Shown here in pieces: positions 3,165-46,722 of a DNA stretch of 64,000 bases. Under the pieces are notes generated by a model. It worked only from the letters and a program-made list of their open reading frames with translations. It did not search any database and was not told the origin of the DNA. The stretch is taken from assembly GCF_009727055.1 (NCBI RefSeq), contig NC_052350.1:27344866-27408865 (forward strand), in the 5' to 3' direction. How positions within the stretch are numbered: the stretch's first letter is position 1; every line of letters begins with the position of its first letter. The DNA is from Benincasa hispida. Taxonomy: Eukaryota; Streptophyta; Magnoliopsida; Cucurbitales; Cucurbitaceae. Made by a program: the position numbers and the translations under genes.

Positions 3165-3920
3165 GAAAACTCATTGCCAGTATGTGAATCATGTCTCGAA
3201 GGCAAGATGACCAAATGACCTTTTATTGGAAAAGGTTACAGAGCCAAGGAAACCTTGGAGCTTGTACATTTAGACCTCTGTGGTCTGATGAATGTTAGGG
3301 CTCGGGGTGGGTATGAATTTTTCATCTCTTTCATAGATGATTATTCAAGGTACGGGTATTTCTACCTAATGCAACGTAAGTCTAAAGCCCTTGACAAGTT
3401 CAAAGAGTATAAGGTTGAAGTTGAAAACTTGTTAGGTAAGAAGATAAAAATACTACGATCTGATCGTGGTAGAGAGTATATGGACCTCTAATTCTAGAAC
3501 TATGTGATAGAATATGGGATTACGTCCCAACTCTCGGCCCCTAGTACACCTCAGTAGAATGGTGTATCAGAAAGAAGAAACAAAACCTTGTTGGACATGG
3601 TTCGGTCTATGATGAGTTATGCTCATCTTCCAGACTCGTTTTAGGGTTTTGCAGTGGAGACTGCATGCTATATCCTAAACAGCGTTCCCTCGAAAAGTGT
3701 TTCTAAAACACCTTTTGAGCTATGGAGAGGCCGTAAAGGTAGTTTACGCTACTTTAGAATTTGGAGCTGTCCGGCACATGTGCTCGTGATTAATCCAAAG
3801 AAGTTGGAACTGCGTTTGAAGGTTTGCCTTTTTGTAGGCTACCCAAGGACACGAGAAGTGGATACTTCTATGATCCGAGTGAGAACAAAGTGTTTGTTTC
3901 TACAAATGCTATCTTCTTAG
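3165..3920 (+). pseudogene. pol: Copia-1 integrase core
   Basis: The CESCLEGK cysteine pair is at about 3183-3206, followed by a TGA near 3217. The catalytic core starts at 3255: first Asp in the HLDLCG block, second Asp in the LRSDRGREY block (about 3457-3483), and the catalytic Glu in the NGVSERRN block near 3560-3580. The DDE residues are therefore still encoded, but stops fall before and inside the core (3489 and several more up to 3645) and a Trp codon is TAG near 3642. The C-terminal block (PSKSVSKTPFELW, then the IWSCPAHVL segment) reads to 3918. Confidence 0.83.
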
Positions 3921-25767: not shown

Positions 25768-28320
25768 AGCACTCATATACAGCGGATGCCTTTTACGCCA
25801 AAAGTTTTATTAATTAAAAAACATAACATGTTTAGAGTAATTACAACACTAGATTCACAAGTCTCGATGCCCAAAACCCTAGTCCCTATATGAACAACTG
25901 TAACATGTGTACAATATTTACAGTAACAACCTAAACAGACGGGTTACAATATCCTTGTCCTTTAGTGGCAGACCAGATGCAGAGCTATCTCCTGAGGATT
26001 TGACCACTACCTGGGGAAAGGAAAACATTTGAAAACGGAAGGAGCCTGCTAGCCCAGCGAGTGACTTAAGAAAGATAATTGATTCTCATGCAAAAGTCTC
26101 AATAAAGAGATTAAACTCAAATATAAACTTCTACAACAACCTTGTACTGTAGTATAAACATTTTTCAAGCATAAAACATATAAAGCTGTTTTTATCAGAA
26201 AATATTAAAATTGTTTCTTAGTTGAGAATAACCCTGTTGCGGTTAAATCCCAACAACAACTACTAGTCAAGAGAGAACCCTTTTGCTCAATCTCTGACTT
26301 CAACTACCTACGTGCACGTGGCCATACTAAGTACCGTCATACCTTAGGTACTTCTACTCAGATACCTTCTCAAAACTTGTCCTTCAGTATCGAGTTGCTA
26401 AGATACCTTCTCAAATGTCTTTCGATATCAAGTTGGTCGGATACCTTCTCAAATGTCCTTTAATATCGCGTTTTAAGTAAAACTAGTCATAAATGACTTT
26501 CTCTTTAAAGCATGTAAAGTATAACACATATAAAACATGTCTTTAAAGATGCTAACGCATGTTGGGTGTATTTAACACACATAATTGCTTTTCAATAAAC
26601 TTTTCATACATGCATGCGTTTAAAACATAGCTCATGGTTTGCTTGGAAATTACTTTGTAAAACTAGCTAGCATGAGAATAATCTTTCTTTAACACATGCT
26701 TTCTTTAAAACATTGTAAATATTTTAGTCACTCACCTTGTTGTCTAAAAACTTTTCAATCTAGAAGTTCCTTATTTACCTCGGGCTCCCTTTTACACCCC
26801 TAAAATCCAGATTCAATTTAACACTCAGATTACTCATAGTTAGAAGCCTTATTATGAGATACTTCCTTCTGAAAACATGTTCTAAAATATCTTTGGAAGC
26901 TTACCTAGAACTTCTCGTGGTTTGGCCGGAATCTCAAAATCTTCAAGACTGGCCCAAGCTTACCCGACAGCTTGACTCTTCTGTCTTTTTCTCTGTTTCC
27001 AGCCCGATCCCTTGGAGCTTTTTCTCCGGCAGCCTTACCCTGAAAACTAGACTTGAAGATCTTTCAGGTGGCTTTGGAATCACTCCAAACGCACGAGTAT
27101 ACTGGGAGAACTCTTCGTCCCAAGTTGATGTTGTTTCCAGAGTTCACTGTCTACTGCGTCTCCTTTGAAGCTTTATGATCAACGCATGGATTTTGCTATC
27201 AACGCAATGTTTACTCAGCTTTCCCACTCTTCTTAATGTCTTTTGAATTATGATCTGAAAAGAAGTTCTTGGCCCTATTTATAGGCATCCAAAAACTCTC
27301 CAAGGTCGACACCTCCTACTTGGCTGCATGTCCAAGTGTTTCTTCCTCACATTATCAATGCAACTTTTGATCAAAGGAACTTTAGGTGTCCTTCTCCTAC
27401 ATAGCCGCATTGGGCTTAATTTTGCATGTCCTCTTGTGCAACCACCTCATTTGCTTAAGTTTTAAGGTTTCTTCCCAAGAAGCCGCATGTTTGATGACGT
27501 CCTCCATATGAGCTCATCCTTTATATGCATCCATCCTACTCAATATGCATTCAACTAGGGTGATGATCAACATCCCTTTTTCCAATGCATATTGCTAGCC
27601 TTGAATATCAACGCATAGTGTACCATCAATGCATAGTAGGTCATCAACGCATAATCTATAATCAACGCATAGCAACCCTTGGCTTTCCTTGGTTTTCAAC
27701 TCACCACCATTGCATCTTCTACAATGCAACCCAACTCACTTAGTCACCGCAAGCCTTAACCATCACAAGAGCCAGCCACCATGCGTCCAACCTAGCTTAT
27801 CGCATGGCCTATGCCTTAGCAGAGTTGCTGCGTCCAACATATCCATCGTGCATGCCATCATCAACTTCCAACGCATAGCATGGTCGCACAGCATCGATGC
27901 ATAGGACGGTCGCTTAGCATTAACGCATAGGATGGTCGTTCGTCATCAACGCATGGGGCGCTTGGCATCGAAGCATGAGCACATGCCTAGTCTAACGCGT
28001 CCATCGCGACCAACGCAACCCTCACATACCCTTTGCGCCGCCTACCCTCGTGCCGTCCCAACTTTCAAACGCATCACTTTCAACTTTCTTCCTTTAGCCG
28101 TATGGATGCATACCACCCTTCTAACGCATCCATCATATAGGTTATACTTAGCCAATTTTCCATGTTTTCCCCAAAAGTCAAGCTTCCAAATTCACACTTT
28201 TCTTCTAATTTTTTACCCTTTTCTCTACCATTACACATTAGTTTCCACATCAACCTACTCACTACACTAGTCTCAGTAGGGAATATACTTAAGTAGAGAA
28301 ATTAGGATTTAGGGTTCACA
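25768..28320 (-). repeat. Gypsy LTR, reverse copy 1 (3' LTR of the reverse element)
   Basis: A near mirror image of the preceding forward LTR, joined to it tail to tail. A roughly 24-base filler at 25743-25767 duplicates 25835-25859. The LTR ends AGGGTTCACA at 28320 (minus-strand TGTGAACCCT), directly followed by a purine-rich (minus strand) tract. Frames at 26854-27168, 27689-27904 and 27932-28270 come from LTR repeats. Confidence 0.85.
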
Positions 28321-28324
28321 TTTA

Positions 28325-28335
28325 TATCCCCCTTA
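28325..28335 (-). other. Gypsy polypurine tract, reverse element
   Basis: The minus strand reads TAAGGGGGATA next to the LTR start. The intact form AAGGGGGAGGTAAA is at 35850-35863 on the plus strand. Confidence 0.65.
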
Positions 28336-28371
28336 TGAAAATTTCATCCTCGAAATTTCACTACAAGTCCG

Positions 28372-29700
28372 TCAATTAAACAACTGCGAATACTTGTTTC
28401 TGATTTTCTCTTCGGCTTCCCATGTTGCTTCATCCATGCTATGGTTTCGCCATAGTACCTTTACCAATGGGATTGTTTTATTTCTTAAGACTTGTTCTTT
28501 TCTGTCAAGAATCTCCACTGGTTCTTCCTCGTAAGACAAATTCTCTCTCAACTGTACTGGTTGCTCAGGAAACACATGGGTAGGATTTGGCACATACTTT
28601 CTAAGCAAAACACGTCATGGATACGAGATCACTCTGAAGGTAAGTCCAACGATACGCCTATTGGGCCAACTCTTTCTATTATCCCGTAAGGTCCAATATA
28701 CCTCGGGCTTAATTTTCCTTTCCTACCAAACCTGAGTATTCCTTTCCATGGAGATAATTTAAGAAATACTTTATCACCAACATCAAATTCCAATTCTCTT
28801 CTCCGCTTATCGGCATAACTCTTTTGCCTATCTCGAGCTGTCTTAAGATTATCTTTTATAATCTTAACATTGTCTGATGTCTGTTGCACAAGTTCTGACC
28901 TAGTAATTTTCTTTCACTGACTTTATCCCAACATATCGGAGTTCTACATGGTCTTTCGTATAGTGCCTCATACGGTGCCATTTCGATACTCGAATGGTAA
29001 CTGTTGTTATATGCAAATTCGATCAACGACAAATGCGTATCCCAACTACCCTTGAATTGCAATACATATGTTCTCATCATGTCCTCTAATGTCTAGATTA
29101 TCCACTCAGACTAACCATCTGTCTGTGGGTGAAAAACGGTACTAAAATATAACTTGGTGCCCATAGCTTTCTGCAAATTAGGCCAAAATTTCGATGTAAA
29201 CCTAGAGTCTTGATCTGATACAATTAAAACTGGAGCTCCAAACTGACTCACAATTCAATCAACATACAGCTTAGCTAATTGGTCTAGGGTAAAAGTAACT
29301 TTAACAGGTAAAAACTTAGTTGTTTTTGTCAATCTATCCATGATTACCCATATACATCATAGCTCACTAGTGTCCTAGGTAACCCAAACAAGAAATCCAT
29401 CGTAACATGCTCCCATTTCCACTCTGGTACTGGGAGTGGATTAAGTAATCCTGCTGGCCTCTGTCTTTCTGGCTTAACTTGTTGACATATTAGACACCTG
29501 TCAACATACTCTGCTATTTCTTTTTTCATACTAGGCCACCAGTACGATCTCTTTAATGTTCTGTACATCTTCGTACTACCCGGATGCATAGCATAAGTCG
29601 AACTATGTGCCTCTTCTAGAATAGCTTGTTTAAGTGCTAAGTTATTAGGTGTGCACACCCTACCTTCTTTTAATGGCACTTTGTCTGTTCTTAGTTGGTA
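28372..29700 (-). pseudogene. pol: Gypsy integrase with GPY and chromodomain-like tail, reverse copy 1
   Basis: Overlapping minus segments in different frames. 29344-29679 holds the HHCC finger (EEAHSS, then MHPGS, then CLIC) and the first catalytic Asp (TMDFLFGLP). 28856-29080 covers the end of the core (SLIEFAYNNSYHSS). 28629-28889 holds the DVGDKVFLKL block and the GPY motif (RYIGPYGIIERVGP). 28372-28608 is the C-terminal domain ending VLWRNHS, ATWEAEE, LFN, typical of plant chromoviruses. The frame changes at each join, so the enzyme is broken. Confidence 0.86.
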
Positions 29701-41034: not shown

Positions 41035-41970
41035 TCATGAGAAATGAAAACTGTGCTCGCATTCTGGCGACCACTCAAACTTCGCATCTTTTCTAGTCAT
41101 GTTTGTTAATGGCAGAGCTATCTTAGAAAAGCCCTCCACGAATCTCCTGTAGTAACCTGCTAAACCCAAAAAACTGCGTACTTCTGTTACATTCATGGGT
41201 CGTTCCCATTTGACTATTTCTTCTATCTTTTGGGAATCTACGCTAACTTCGTTAGCTGAAACTATATGCCTAAGGAATACGACTTGGTTTAACCAAAAAT
41301 CACACTTACTAACCTTGGCATATAACTTCTTTTCTCTTAGCATCTGCAACACGATCCTCAAATGTTCTTTGTGCTTCTCTATGCTACTAGAATATACTAG
41401 TATATCGTCTATGAAAACTATCACAAACTGATCTAGATAAAGATGAAATATCCTATTCATCAAGTCTATAAATACCACAGGAGCATTCGTCAATCCAAAC
41501 GGCATTACTAGGAACTCATAATATCCATACCTAGTTCTGAATGAAGTCTTTGGAACATTTGTGTCTTTCACCTTCAACTGTTGATAACCTGATCTCAAAT
41601 CTATCTTAGAGAACACTGTGGCTCCCTTTAACTGATCGAGGAGATCATCTATACGAGGCAATGGGTACTTATTCTTAATGATCACCTTATTCAACTGTCT
41701 ATAGTTTATGCATAATCTAAGAGTATCGTCTTTCTTCTTGACAAATAAGACTGACGCTCCCCAAGGCAACACACTGGGTCTAATGTACCCCTTATCTACA
41801 AGTTTCTGTAACTGAACTTTTAACTTCTTCAGTTCTATTGGTGCCATCCTATATGGTGCCTGGGTTATAGGTGTGGTACCTGGAACTAACTTAATAGTAA
41901 ACTCTATTTCCCTGTCAGGTGCTAAGCCTGGTAACTCTTCAAAGAACACATCTAAGAATTCCTGTATCAC
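41035..41970 (-). pseudogene. pol: Gypsy reverse transcriptase, open for 311 codons
   Basis: The longest clean coding segment in the window. The protease-RT linker is residues 1-45. The finger and palm blocks are [13 protein letters not shown] (60-72), [11 protein letters not shown] (84-94), YPLPRIDDL (102-110), [12 protein letters not shown] (120-131, with the first catalytic Asp at 124), MPFGLTNAP (156-164) and the active site FIDD at 186-189. The thumb/connection follows to about 305. F-IDD instead of Y-VDD is usual in plant Ty3 elements. It lacks the protease upstream (the sequence breaks at about 42050) and the true continuation into RNase H, so it is only a fragment of a polyprotein. 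Confidence 0.9.
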
Positions 41971-42137
41971 AGGTACATCCTCAGGTTTCAGCTTCTTATC
42001 CTGTGAAACTACTACATAGGCTAAATAGGCTTCACATCCCTTACCCCAATTTCTCTAACATGTGTACTTTAAGCATGAGACTACCCCGTCCCAGATATTC
42101 CTAGTCTGGAGTTATTAGGCACGGGGTGTGATACCTT
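41971..42137. other. Broken join between RT linker and forward LTR
   Basis: The minus pol homology continues to about 42048 (compare 32870-32890). The next ~85 bases hold leader- and LTR-end-like scraps (ACATGTGTAC, ACCCCGTCCCAGA, and GGCACGGGGTGTGAT ending at 42132). Then the forward LTR starts. No gene. Confidence 0.55.
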
Positions 42138-44817: not shown

Positions 44818-44857
44818 GCTTGGTGCTAGCCTCGAATATCAACGCATAGTGTAACAT

Positions 44858-44895
44858 CTGTCTCTTATACACATCTAGATGTGTATAAGAGACAG
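44858..44895. other. Nextera/Tn5 mosaic-end junction adapter (library contamination)
   Basis: 44858-44876 reads CTGTCTCTTATACACATCT, the 19-base Tn5 mosaic end. 44877-44895 reads AGATGTGTATAAGAGACAG, its exact reverse complement. Together they form a perfect 38-base palindrome identical to the junction adapter of Nextera mate-pair libraries. The conceptual minus translation across it gives SYTHLDVYKRQ, a well-known adapter artefact in protein databases. The LTR sequence around it is partly repeated on the two sides (CATAGTGTA at 44845-44853 and again at 44898-44906). It is not natural plant sequence. Confidence 0.98.
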
Positions 44896-45235
44896 CACAT
44901 AGTGTACCATCAATGCTTAGTAGCTCATCAATGCATAGTCTATAATCAATGCATAGCAACCCTTGGCTCCACTTGGTTTTCAACTCACCACCATTGCATC
45001 TTCTACAACACAACACAACTCAATCATCGCAAGCCTTAACCATCGCAAGAGCCAGCCACCATGCGTCCAACCTAGCTCATCACATGGCCTATGCCTTAGC
45101 AGAGTTTTCGCATCCAACGTTTCCATCGTGCATGCCATCGTCTACTTCCAATGTATAGCACGGTCGCTCGGCCTCGACGCACAGGACGCTCACTTAATAT
45201 CAACATGTAGGATGGTCGCTCGTCATTGACGCATA

Positions 45236-45386
45236 GCTCGCTTGGCATCACCGCATGGGACACTTGGCATCGATGCATGGGTGCTTGGCATCGACGCATG
45301 GGCGCTAGGCATCGATGCATGGGCGCTTGGCATCGACACATGGGTGTTTGGCATCGATGCATGGGCACTTGGCATCGACGCATGCC
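45236..45386. repeat. 21-base minisatellite in the reverse gypsy LTR
   Basis: About seven tandem copies of TTGGCATCGATGCATGGGCGC with small changes. Other LTR copies have only one to three related units (e.g. 36185-36240, 42470-42500). The unit is a multiple of three, so it yields seven-residue repeats in open frames on both strands. Confidence 0.85.
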
Positions 45387-45742: not shown

Positions 45743-46722
45743 TTTACCTCCCCCTTATGAAAATTTCATCCTCGAAATTTCGCTACAAGTCCATTAATTA
45801 AACAACTGCAAATACTTGTTTCTGATTTGCTCTTCGGCTTCCCACGTTGCTTCTTCTATGCTATGGTTTTGCCATAGTACCTTTACCAATGGGATTGTTT
45901 TATTTCTTAAGACCTGTTCTTTTCTGTCAAGACTCTCCACTGGTTCTTCCTCGTAAGACAAATTCTCTCTCAACTGTACTGGTTGCTCAGGCAACACATG
46001 GGTAGGATCTGGCACATACTTTCTAAGCATTTCCACATGAAACACGTCATGGATATGAGATAACTCTGAAGGTAAGTCCAATTGATACGCCATTGGGCCA
46101 ACTCTTTCTATTATCTCGTAAGGTCCAATATACCTCAAGCTTAATTTCCCTTTCCTACCAAACCTGAGTATTCCCTTCCACGGAGTTAATTTAAGAAATA
46201 CTTTATCACCAACTTCAAATTCCCATTCTCTTCTCCGCTTATCGGCATAACTCTTTTTCCTGTCTCGAGTTGTCTTAAGATTATCTCTTCTAATCTTAAC
46301 ACTGTCTGATGTCTGTTGCACAAGTTCTGGACCTAGTAATTTTCTTTCACCGAATTCATCCCAACATATCGAAGTTCTACATGGTCTTCCATATAGTGCC
46401 TCATACGGTGCCTTTTTTATACTCGAATGGTAACTGTTGTTATACGCAAATTCGATCAACGACAAATGTGTATCCCAACTGCCCTTGAATTGCAATACAC
46501 ATTCTCTCAGCATATCCTCTAATGTCTGGATTGTCCGCTCAGATTGACCATCCGTCTGTGGGTGAAAAGCAGTACTAAAATATAACTTGGTACCCATAGC
46601 TTTCTGCAAACTACACCAAAACTTTGAAGTAAACATGGAGTCTTGATTTGATACAATTGAAACTGGAGCTCCAAACTAACTCACAATTCGATCAACATAC
46701 AGCTTAGTTAATTGGTCTAGGG
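45743..46722 (-). pseudogene. pol: Gypsy integrase core and chromodomain-like tail, reverse copy 3
   Basis: The polypurine tract lies at about 45749-45757 (minus). The open segment 45794-46636 has 280 codons: TSKFW (the second Asp lies just upstream), then HPQTDGQSERTIQTLED with the catalytic Glu at about residue 34, SLIEFAYNNSYHSS, EVGDKVFLKL at about 141-150, the GPY motif at about 171-183, and the chromodomain-like end (IPLVKVLWQNHSIEEATW). It starts inside the core because homology continues upstream in another frame to 46722, where it joins a forward LTR. Confidence 0.87.

Follow-up and report, generated by a model that had tools for sequence, protein, structure and literature searches.

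The mosaic end of Tn5 is an engineered mosaic of the outside and inside ends (PMC6201506), and hyperactive mosaic ends have replaced the natural outside and inside ends, whose activity is lower (PMC4248319). A mosaic-end oligonucleotide is printed as Tn5MErev in PMC4248319, where it is the same 19-mer as the one described below, and a mosaic-end oligonucleotide is also printed in PMC3046479. Two library systems are the closest described relatives of the locus reported here. In Nextera Mate Pair (Illumina) libraries, tagmentation puts biotinylated junction adapters on the fragments, and these adapters are trimmed later (PMC6298255); reads were likewise clipped of the Nextera Mate Pair junction adapter in PMC5066668. 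In PMC7357533, a biotin-labelled ring adapter is used for the circularisation of fragments of about 4 kb, and the full 38-mer of this adapter is printed.

In the 64-kb stretch of plant DNA analysed here (the window), the same 38 bases as in the ring adapter of PMC7357533 were found inside assembled sequence. That ring adapter is joined by T4 ligase to ultrasound-sheared fragments of about 4 kb and is not delivered by a transposase. The likeness to Nextera Mate Pair lies in Tn5-borne junction adapters that sit on the fragment ends and are removed before the reads are used, and ligation of two mosaic ends at their inner ends would give this 38-mer, judging from the oligonucleotide in PMC4248319. 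The passages of PMC6298255 and PMC5066668 on the junction adapter carry no printed 38-mer, and the adapter of the window differs from the adapters treated there in lying within the assembly and not within a read. The features of the locus are listed in Table 1.

Table 1. Positions of the adapter, its two halves and the adjoining sequence in the window
Feature	Position	Strand	Basis
Circularisation (mate-pair junction) adapter, synthetic, palindromic	44858..44895	.	Exact string; published ring adapter; unrelated assemblies
Tn5 mosaic end, copy 1, AGATGTGTATAAGAGACAG, outer end toward left flank	44858..44876	-	0 mismatches; 19-base oligonucleotide in PMC4248319
Tn5 mosaic end, copy 2, AGATGTGTATAAGAGACAG, outer end toward right flank	44877..44895	+	0 mismatches
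Left flank (34 bases from the repeat family), last base equivalent to 27626 in the 27.6-kb copy	44824..44857	+	94% to 27593-27626; 91% to 36587-36554
Right flank, same family and orientation, beginning about 15 bases before the stop of the left flank	44896..45257	+	Similarity and joint alignment
18-bp minisatellite CATAGTATATCATCAATG, 3.3 copies	44898..44956	+	Tandem Repeats Finder; alignment

Identity of the 38-base string

Positions 44858-44895 of the window read CTGTCTCTTATACACATCTAGATGTGTATAAGAGACAG, which is identical to its own reverse complement. The arms of this palindrome are exactly 19 bases long, the flanks add no further pairing, and no other perfect palindrome in the window has arms longer than 8. 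The window contains two exact matches to the 19-mer mosaic end and no third match at up to 3 mismatches, while the shuffled-sequence control gave a mean of 0.06 matches and two matches in 0 of 100 shuffles. The two mosaic ends are separated by 0 bases and are oriented with their inner ends meeting and their outer ends toward the genomic DNA. None of ten further adapter or linker sequences (TruSeq, P5, P7, two Nextera tails, SMRTbell, ONT, a NEB-type string, loxP and a 454 linker) was present in the 64 kb when up to 2 mismatches were allowed, and N characters were also not found. The 38-base string is not present in the four other window copies of the repeat family to which the flanks belong.

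An exact-string literature search for the 38-mer returned a single paper, PMC7357533. Because the mosaic-end oligonucleotide and the complete ring adapter are both printed in the literature and Nextera Mate Pair libraries are described as carrying such junction adapters, the 38-mer is identified as a circularisation adapter of mate-pair-type libraries, and this identification holds alike for a transposase-delivered adapter and for a ligated ring adapter. The sequence at 44858-44895 is thus synthetic DNA left in the assembly and not a genomic or biological feature, and an untrimmed adapter in an assembly is an already known kind of artefact.

In the preliminary description, the string had been taken as two head-to-head 19-base Tn5 mosaic ends forming a perfect 38-base palindrome and as a circularisation-junction adapter. 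The first point is borne out by the exact string, arms of 19 and 0 mismatches, and the second by the identity of the 38 bases with a published circularisation adapter, the engineered nature of the mosaic end and the presence of the string in unrelated assemblies. The peptide SYTHLDVYKRQ had been added there as a known artefact. The translation itself is correct, one frame of the 38 bases giving VSYTHLDVYKRQ; the full-text literature search for the peptide as an artefact returned 0 papers.

Occurrence of the adapter in other assemblies

The exact 38-mer was found in 7 viral-contig stretches, in at least 120 stretches of GTDB genomes (19 organism titles among the matches listed, counted by eye) and in 5 of 72,556 plasmid records. 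Searches of 20,395 E. coli and 50,697 phage records did not find it, and adapter contamination is therefore uneven. Two controls run on the viral contigs, the two mosaic ends in opposite order and a shuffled 38-base palindrome, each gave 0 stretches. The sequences flanking the 38-mer are unrelated among the unrelated assemblies of the viral contig, GTDB and plasmid sets. In all of these bacterial, viral and plasmid records the string is identical to that of the window and is likewise embedded in assembled contigs; the hosts there are prokaryotic, viral or plasmid, whereas the flanks of the window adapter overlap imperfectly inside a tandem array.

The PLSDB plasmid records with the adapter belong to Klebsiella (2), Serratia, Cronobacter and Escherichia. 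The adapter is counted at 14 places in all in these five plasmids, where the two strands of the palindrome were probably counted separately.

Flanks of other embedded junctions

A comparison set of 127 fetched stretches with 154 junction sites was assembled (147 of the sites were used in one count). Most of the set comes from a small number of heavily contaminated genomes (two Enterococcus, Ideonella, Scytonema and some others), and the counts that follow are not independent. Exact end-to-start duplication of the flanks, over 6-95 bases, was observed at 19 of 120 sites (23 sites with N and 11 short ones being dropped) compared with 4 of 14228 mismatched pairs. By local alignment with a score of 12 or more, direct flank duplication was detected at 22 of 113 sites (7 short sites, 24 with N and 10 with another mosaic end nearby being dropped) compared with 0 of 1116 mismatched pairs.

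At 27 of the 123 sites kept for this test, a flank end recurred almost identically (at least 98% over at least 40 bases) 0.3-5.2 kb away in the same stretch. Counted as sites per category, the distant copies lay in the direction predicted for mate pairs at 23 (right flank upstream at 13, left flank downstream at 10), in the opposite direction at 9 (5 and 4, respectively) and on the opposite strand at 1. Since both outcomes occur in the comparison set, the presence of an adapter alone does not tell local from distant flanks.

The stretch L088 has a 10-base duplication around the adapter that starts at 3506. The sequence recurs in that stretch without an adapter, and there its two flanks overlap by the same 10 bases. 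The adapters of L065 (start 7830) and L088 (start 3506) lie between exact direct repeats of 9 and 10 bases, respectively, as expected if the two ends of one Tn5 cut, with its 9-bp stagger, had been rejoined.

Sequence on the two sides of the adapter

The adapter of the window sits at the edge of the 18-bp minisatellite, and in the alignment the left flank ends in bases similar to one further unit of it. The similarity of the left flank switches between sets of copies at a boundary just left of the adapter, at about 44819-44824. In two paralogues of the window, at 27.6 kb (+ strand) and at 36.6 kb (- strand), the left-flank sequence passes into the right-flank sequence as an unbroken stretch. 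The right flank was 85% identical to the 27.6-kb copy (44898-45257 versus 27614-27977) and 85% identical to the 36.6-kb copy (44898-45287 versus 36566-36172). In coordinates of the 27.6-kb copy, the left flank extends to 27626 and the right flank begins at about 27612; the corresponding positions in the 36.6-kb copy are 36554 and about 36568. With the adapter removed, the focal copy is about 15 bases longer than its paralogue, which corresponds to one 18-bp unit less 3 bases.

When the flanks were adjoined, one 15-base gap was needed against the 27.6-kb copy and gaps of 14 and 1 against the 36.6-kb copy, and the score of 170 was a small gain, after gap costs, on the 166 (27.6-kb copy) and 164 (36.6-kb copy) that the right flank reached by itself. 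Two other copies, near 23.8 and 42.8 kb, carry fewer units of the 18-bp repeat; when the adjoined flanks are optimally aligned to these, the left flank is omitted. The overlapping 15-base pieces match at only 13 positions and so do not form a clean duplication of a single stretch; they may represent adjacent 18-bp units lacking 3 bases, a pair of alleles or a pair of paralogues. The exact end-to-start overlap at the focal junction is 0. The local-alignment score of its flank ends is 10, which was also reached by 8 of 1116 mismatched pairs and so does not by itself go beyond the null; their best direct match is a further unit of the 18-bp array.

A register within 25 bases of that at the focal junction was obtained for 21 of 12788 sampled 60-mers (window, both strands). 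A search of the 64-kb window at 95% or more yielded no further copy of either flank. For the left flank, the best copies reached 94% over 34 bases and 93% over 123 bases, and for the right flank the best was 91% over 173 bases. Four other family copies in the window are 87-91% identical to the right flank over 173-202 bases.

Origin of the junction and alternative explanations

Since the flanks are collinear with two paralogues, since a register as close as this was obtained for so few of the sampled 60-mers, and since neither flank has a second window copy at 95% or more, local continuity across 44858-44895 appears to be the better reading of the sequence, the number of repeat units and the identity of the copy being left aside; its support comes from comparisons within the window and from a left flank with just 34 bases of the family. 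The probable explanation of the locus as a whole is that an adapter was left untrimmed and was assembled as if it were genomic, with locally continuous flanks and an error of about one 18-bp unit plus the 38 synthetic bases. We infer both that the flanks are true neighbours and by what route the assembler took in the adapter. Along that route, a fragment with a Tn5 mosaic end at each end, or with a ready-made ring adapter, would have been closed into a circle for mate-pair sequencing, and the adapter, staying untrimmed in the reads, would have turned into a false high-copy repeat. The left-flank contig and the right-flank contig would each run into the adapter inside the short tandem array, and contigs that are true neighbours would be merged through it, often with a short true overlap left duplicated. 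Merging of this kind would explain why flank ends are exactly duplicated in the comparison set, and also the imperfect duplication in the tandem array of the window.

Two other explanations agree with local continuity in taking the 38 bases as an adapter and differ from it in where the flanks come from. The assembler may have switched between copies of the repeat family at the same position by way of the adapter, so that the flanks are in register and yet stem from different loci. Partners for such a homology-guided chimaera would have been available in the four other family copies with 87-91% identity to the right flank, and the overlapping 15 bases do differ at two positions; however, plain adjacency within the 18-bp array explains these two differences equally well, no observation is specific to another locus, and we regard a switch of this kind as unlikely. 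A misjoin over kilobases, with the flanks being the end and the start of one circularised fragment and the right flank really lying several kilobases upstream of the left, has the geometry that mate-pair junctions have in principle, and the 27 junctions with a distant flank copy, with their excess in the predicted direction, show the pattern that it would give elsewhere. At the focal site, however, both flanks belong to one family and lie on the same strand, and their family coordinates agree to within about 15 bases; this register was seen with few of the sampled 60-mers, and a near-identical shadow copy of either flank was not found in the window. With the flanks in register with two paralogues, this misjoin was set aside as a leading reading, and we consider it quite improbable here. 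The preliminary description had held that the flanks could come from points several kilobases apart and that continuity was lost at this place. That warning is sound in general, as the junctions with distant flank copies illustrate, but it is not supported at this site.

The remaining explanations dispute that the 38 bases are synthetic. The string does consist of transposase end sequences, as an insertion into the plant genome by natural Tn5/IS50 or by an engineered mosaic-end transposon would supply. The ends found here are, however, exact engineered mosaic ends and not natural Tn5 ends (PMC4248319, PMC6201506), and the 0 bases between them leave no transposon. Tn5 insertion makes a 9-bp target duplication (PMC4248319), whereas the adjoining 9 bases, GTGTAACAT on one side and CACATAGTG on the other, differ and share an exact overlap of 0. 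A genuine insertion was rejected on these grounds, its probability being negligible. A palindrome arising by chance or native to the host is practically inconceivable and is ruled out by the arm length, 19 against 8 for the next longest in 64 kb, and by exact identity to a printed library oligonucleotide (PMC4248319); the string is also missing from the four other family copies.

Handling of the locus and related junctions

The locus is a matter of quality control, and the 38 bases should be masked before a repeat library, a gene model or a palindrome survey is built. It had been predicted that any gene model or repeat consensus from this place would carry synthetic sequence, and this is upheld, the 38 bases being adapter. 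Because the flanks look locally continuous, there is no need on present evidence to break the locus apart. Given its presence at this locus, the 38-mer may also occur in further contigs of this assembly. As a tentative generalisation, which we put forward as possible rather than probable, adapters embedded in assemblies may be markers of contig merges through a false high-copy node, with short tandem arrays favoured and with embedded junctions falling into two classes (local with duplicated ends, and distant-flank), the focal site being a degenerate member of the local class. Junctions of both classes were seen in the comparison set.

Retrotransposon surroundings

The ORF at 41035-42054 (- strand) encodes an RVT_1 reverse transcriptase domain (2.3e-33), and the ORF at 45794-46675 (- strand) encodes SH3_Tf2-1 (3e-27) together with a chromo domain match under the curated cut-off (21.4 versus 25.1 bits). 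Among the best 120 of 7937 matches to the protein of the latter ORF (the integrase end), identities were 42-78% and none was near-identical; the named relatives among them were mostly from plants (Cucumis, Gossypium, Olea, Tanacetum and others), and the plant relatives were named as reverse transcriptase, integrase, transposon polyprotein or hypothetical protein. Coding sequence of an LTR retrotransposon (RVT_1, SH3_Tf2-1) is thus present around the adapter, in agreement with the gypsy block proposed earlier, and the surroundings fit a putative Ty3/gypsy chromovirus-type element in a plant, both of these names being read from domain matches and relatives.

The highest identity among the best 120 of 7937 matches, 78% over 90% of the integrase-end protein, was to a UniRef protein (P0039) filed under Picosynechococcus sp. 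PCC 7002, which is possibly a plant sequence filed under a cyanobacterium. The region 23172-48376 is densely filled with nested direct and inverted LTR-retrotransposon copies of about 78-94% mutual identity, for example 25771-28640 versus 38355-35534 (inverted, 88%). A second minisatellite, with 8.1 copies of the 21-bp unit ATGGGCGCTTGGCATCGACGC, is located at 45212-45384, close to the 18-bp array.
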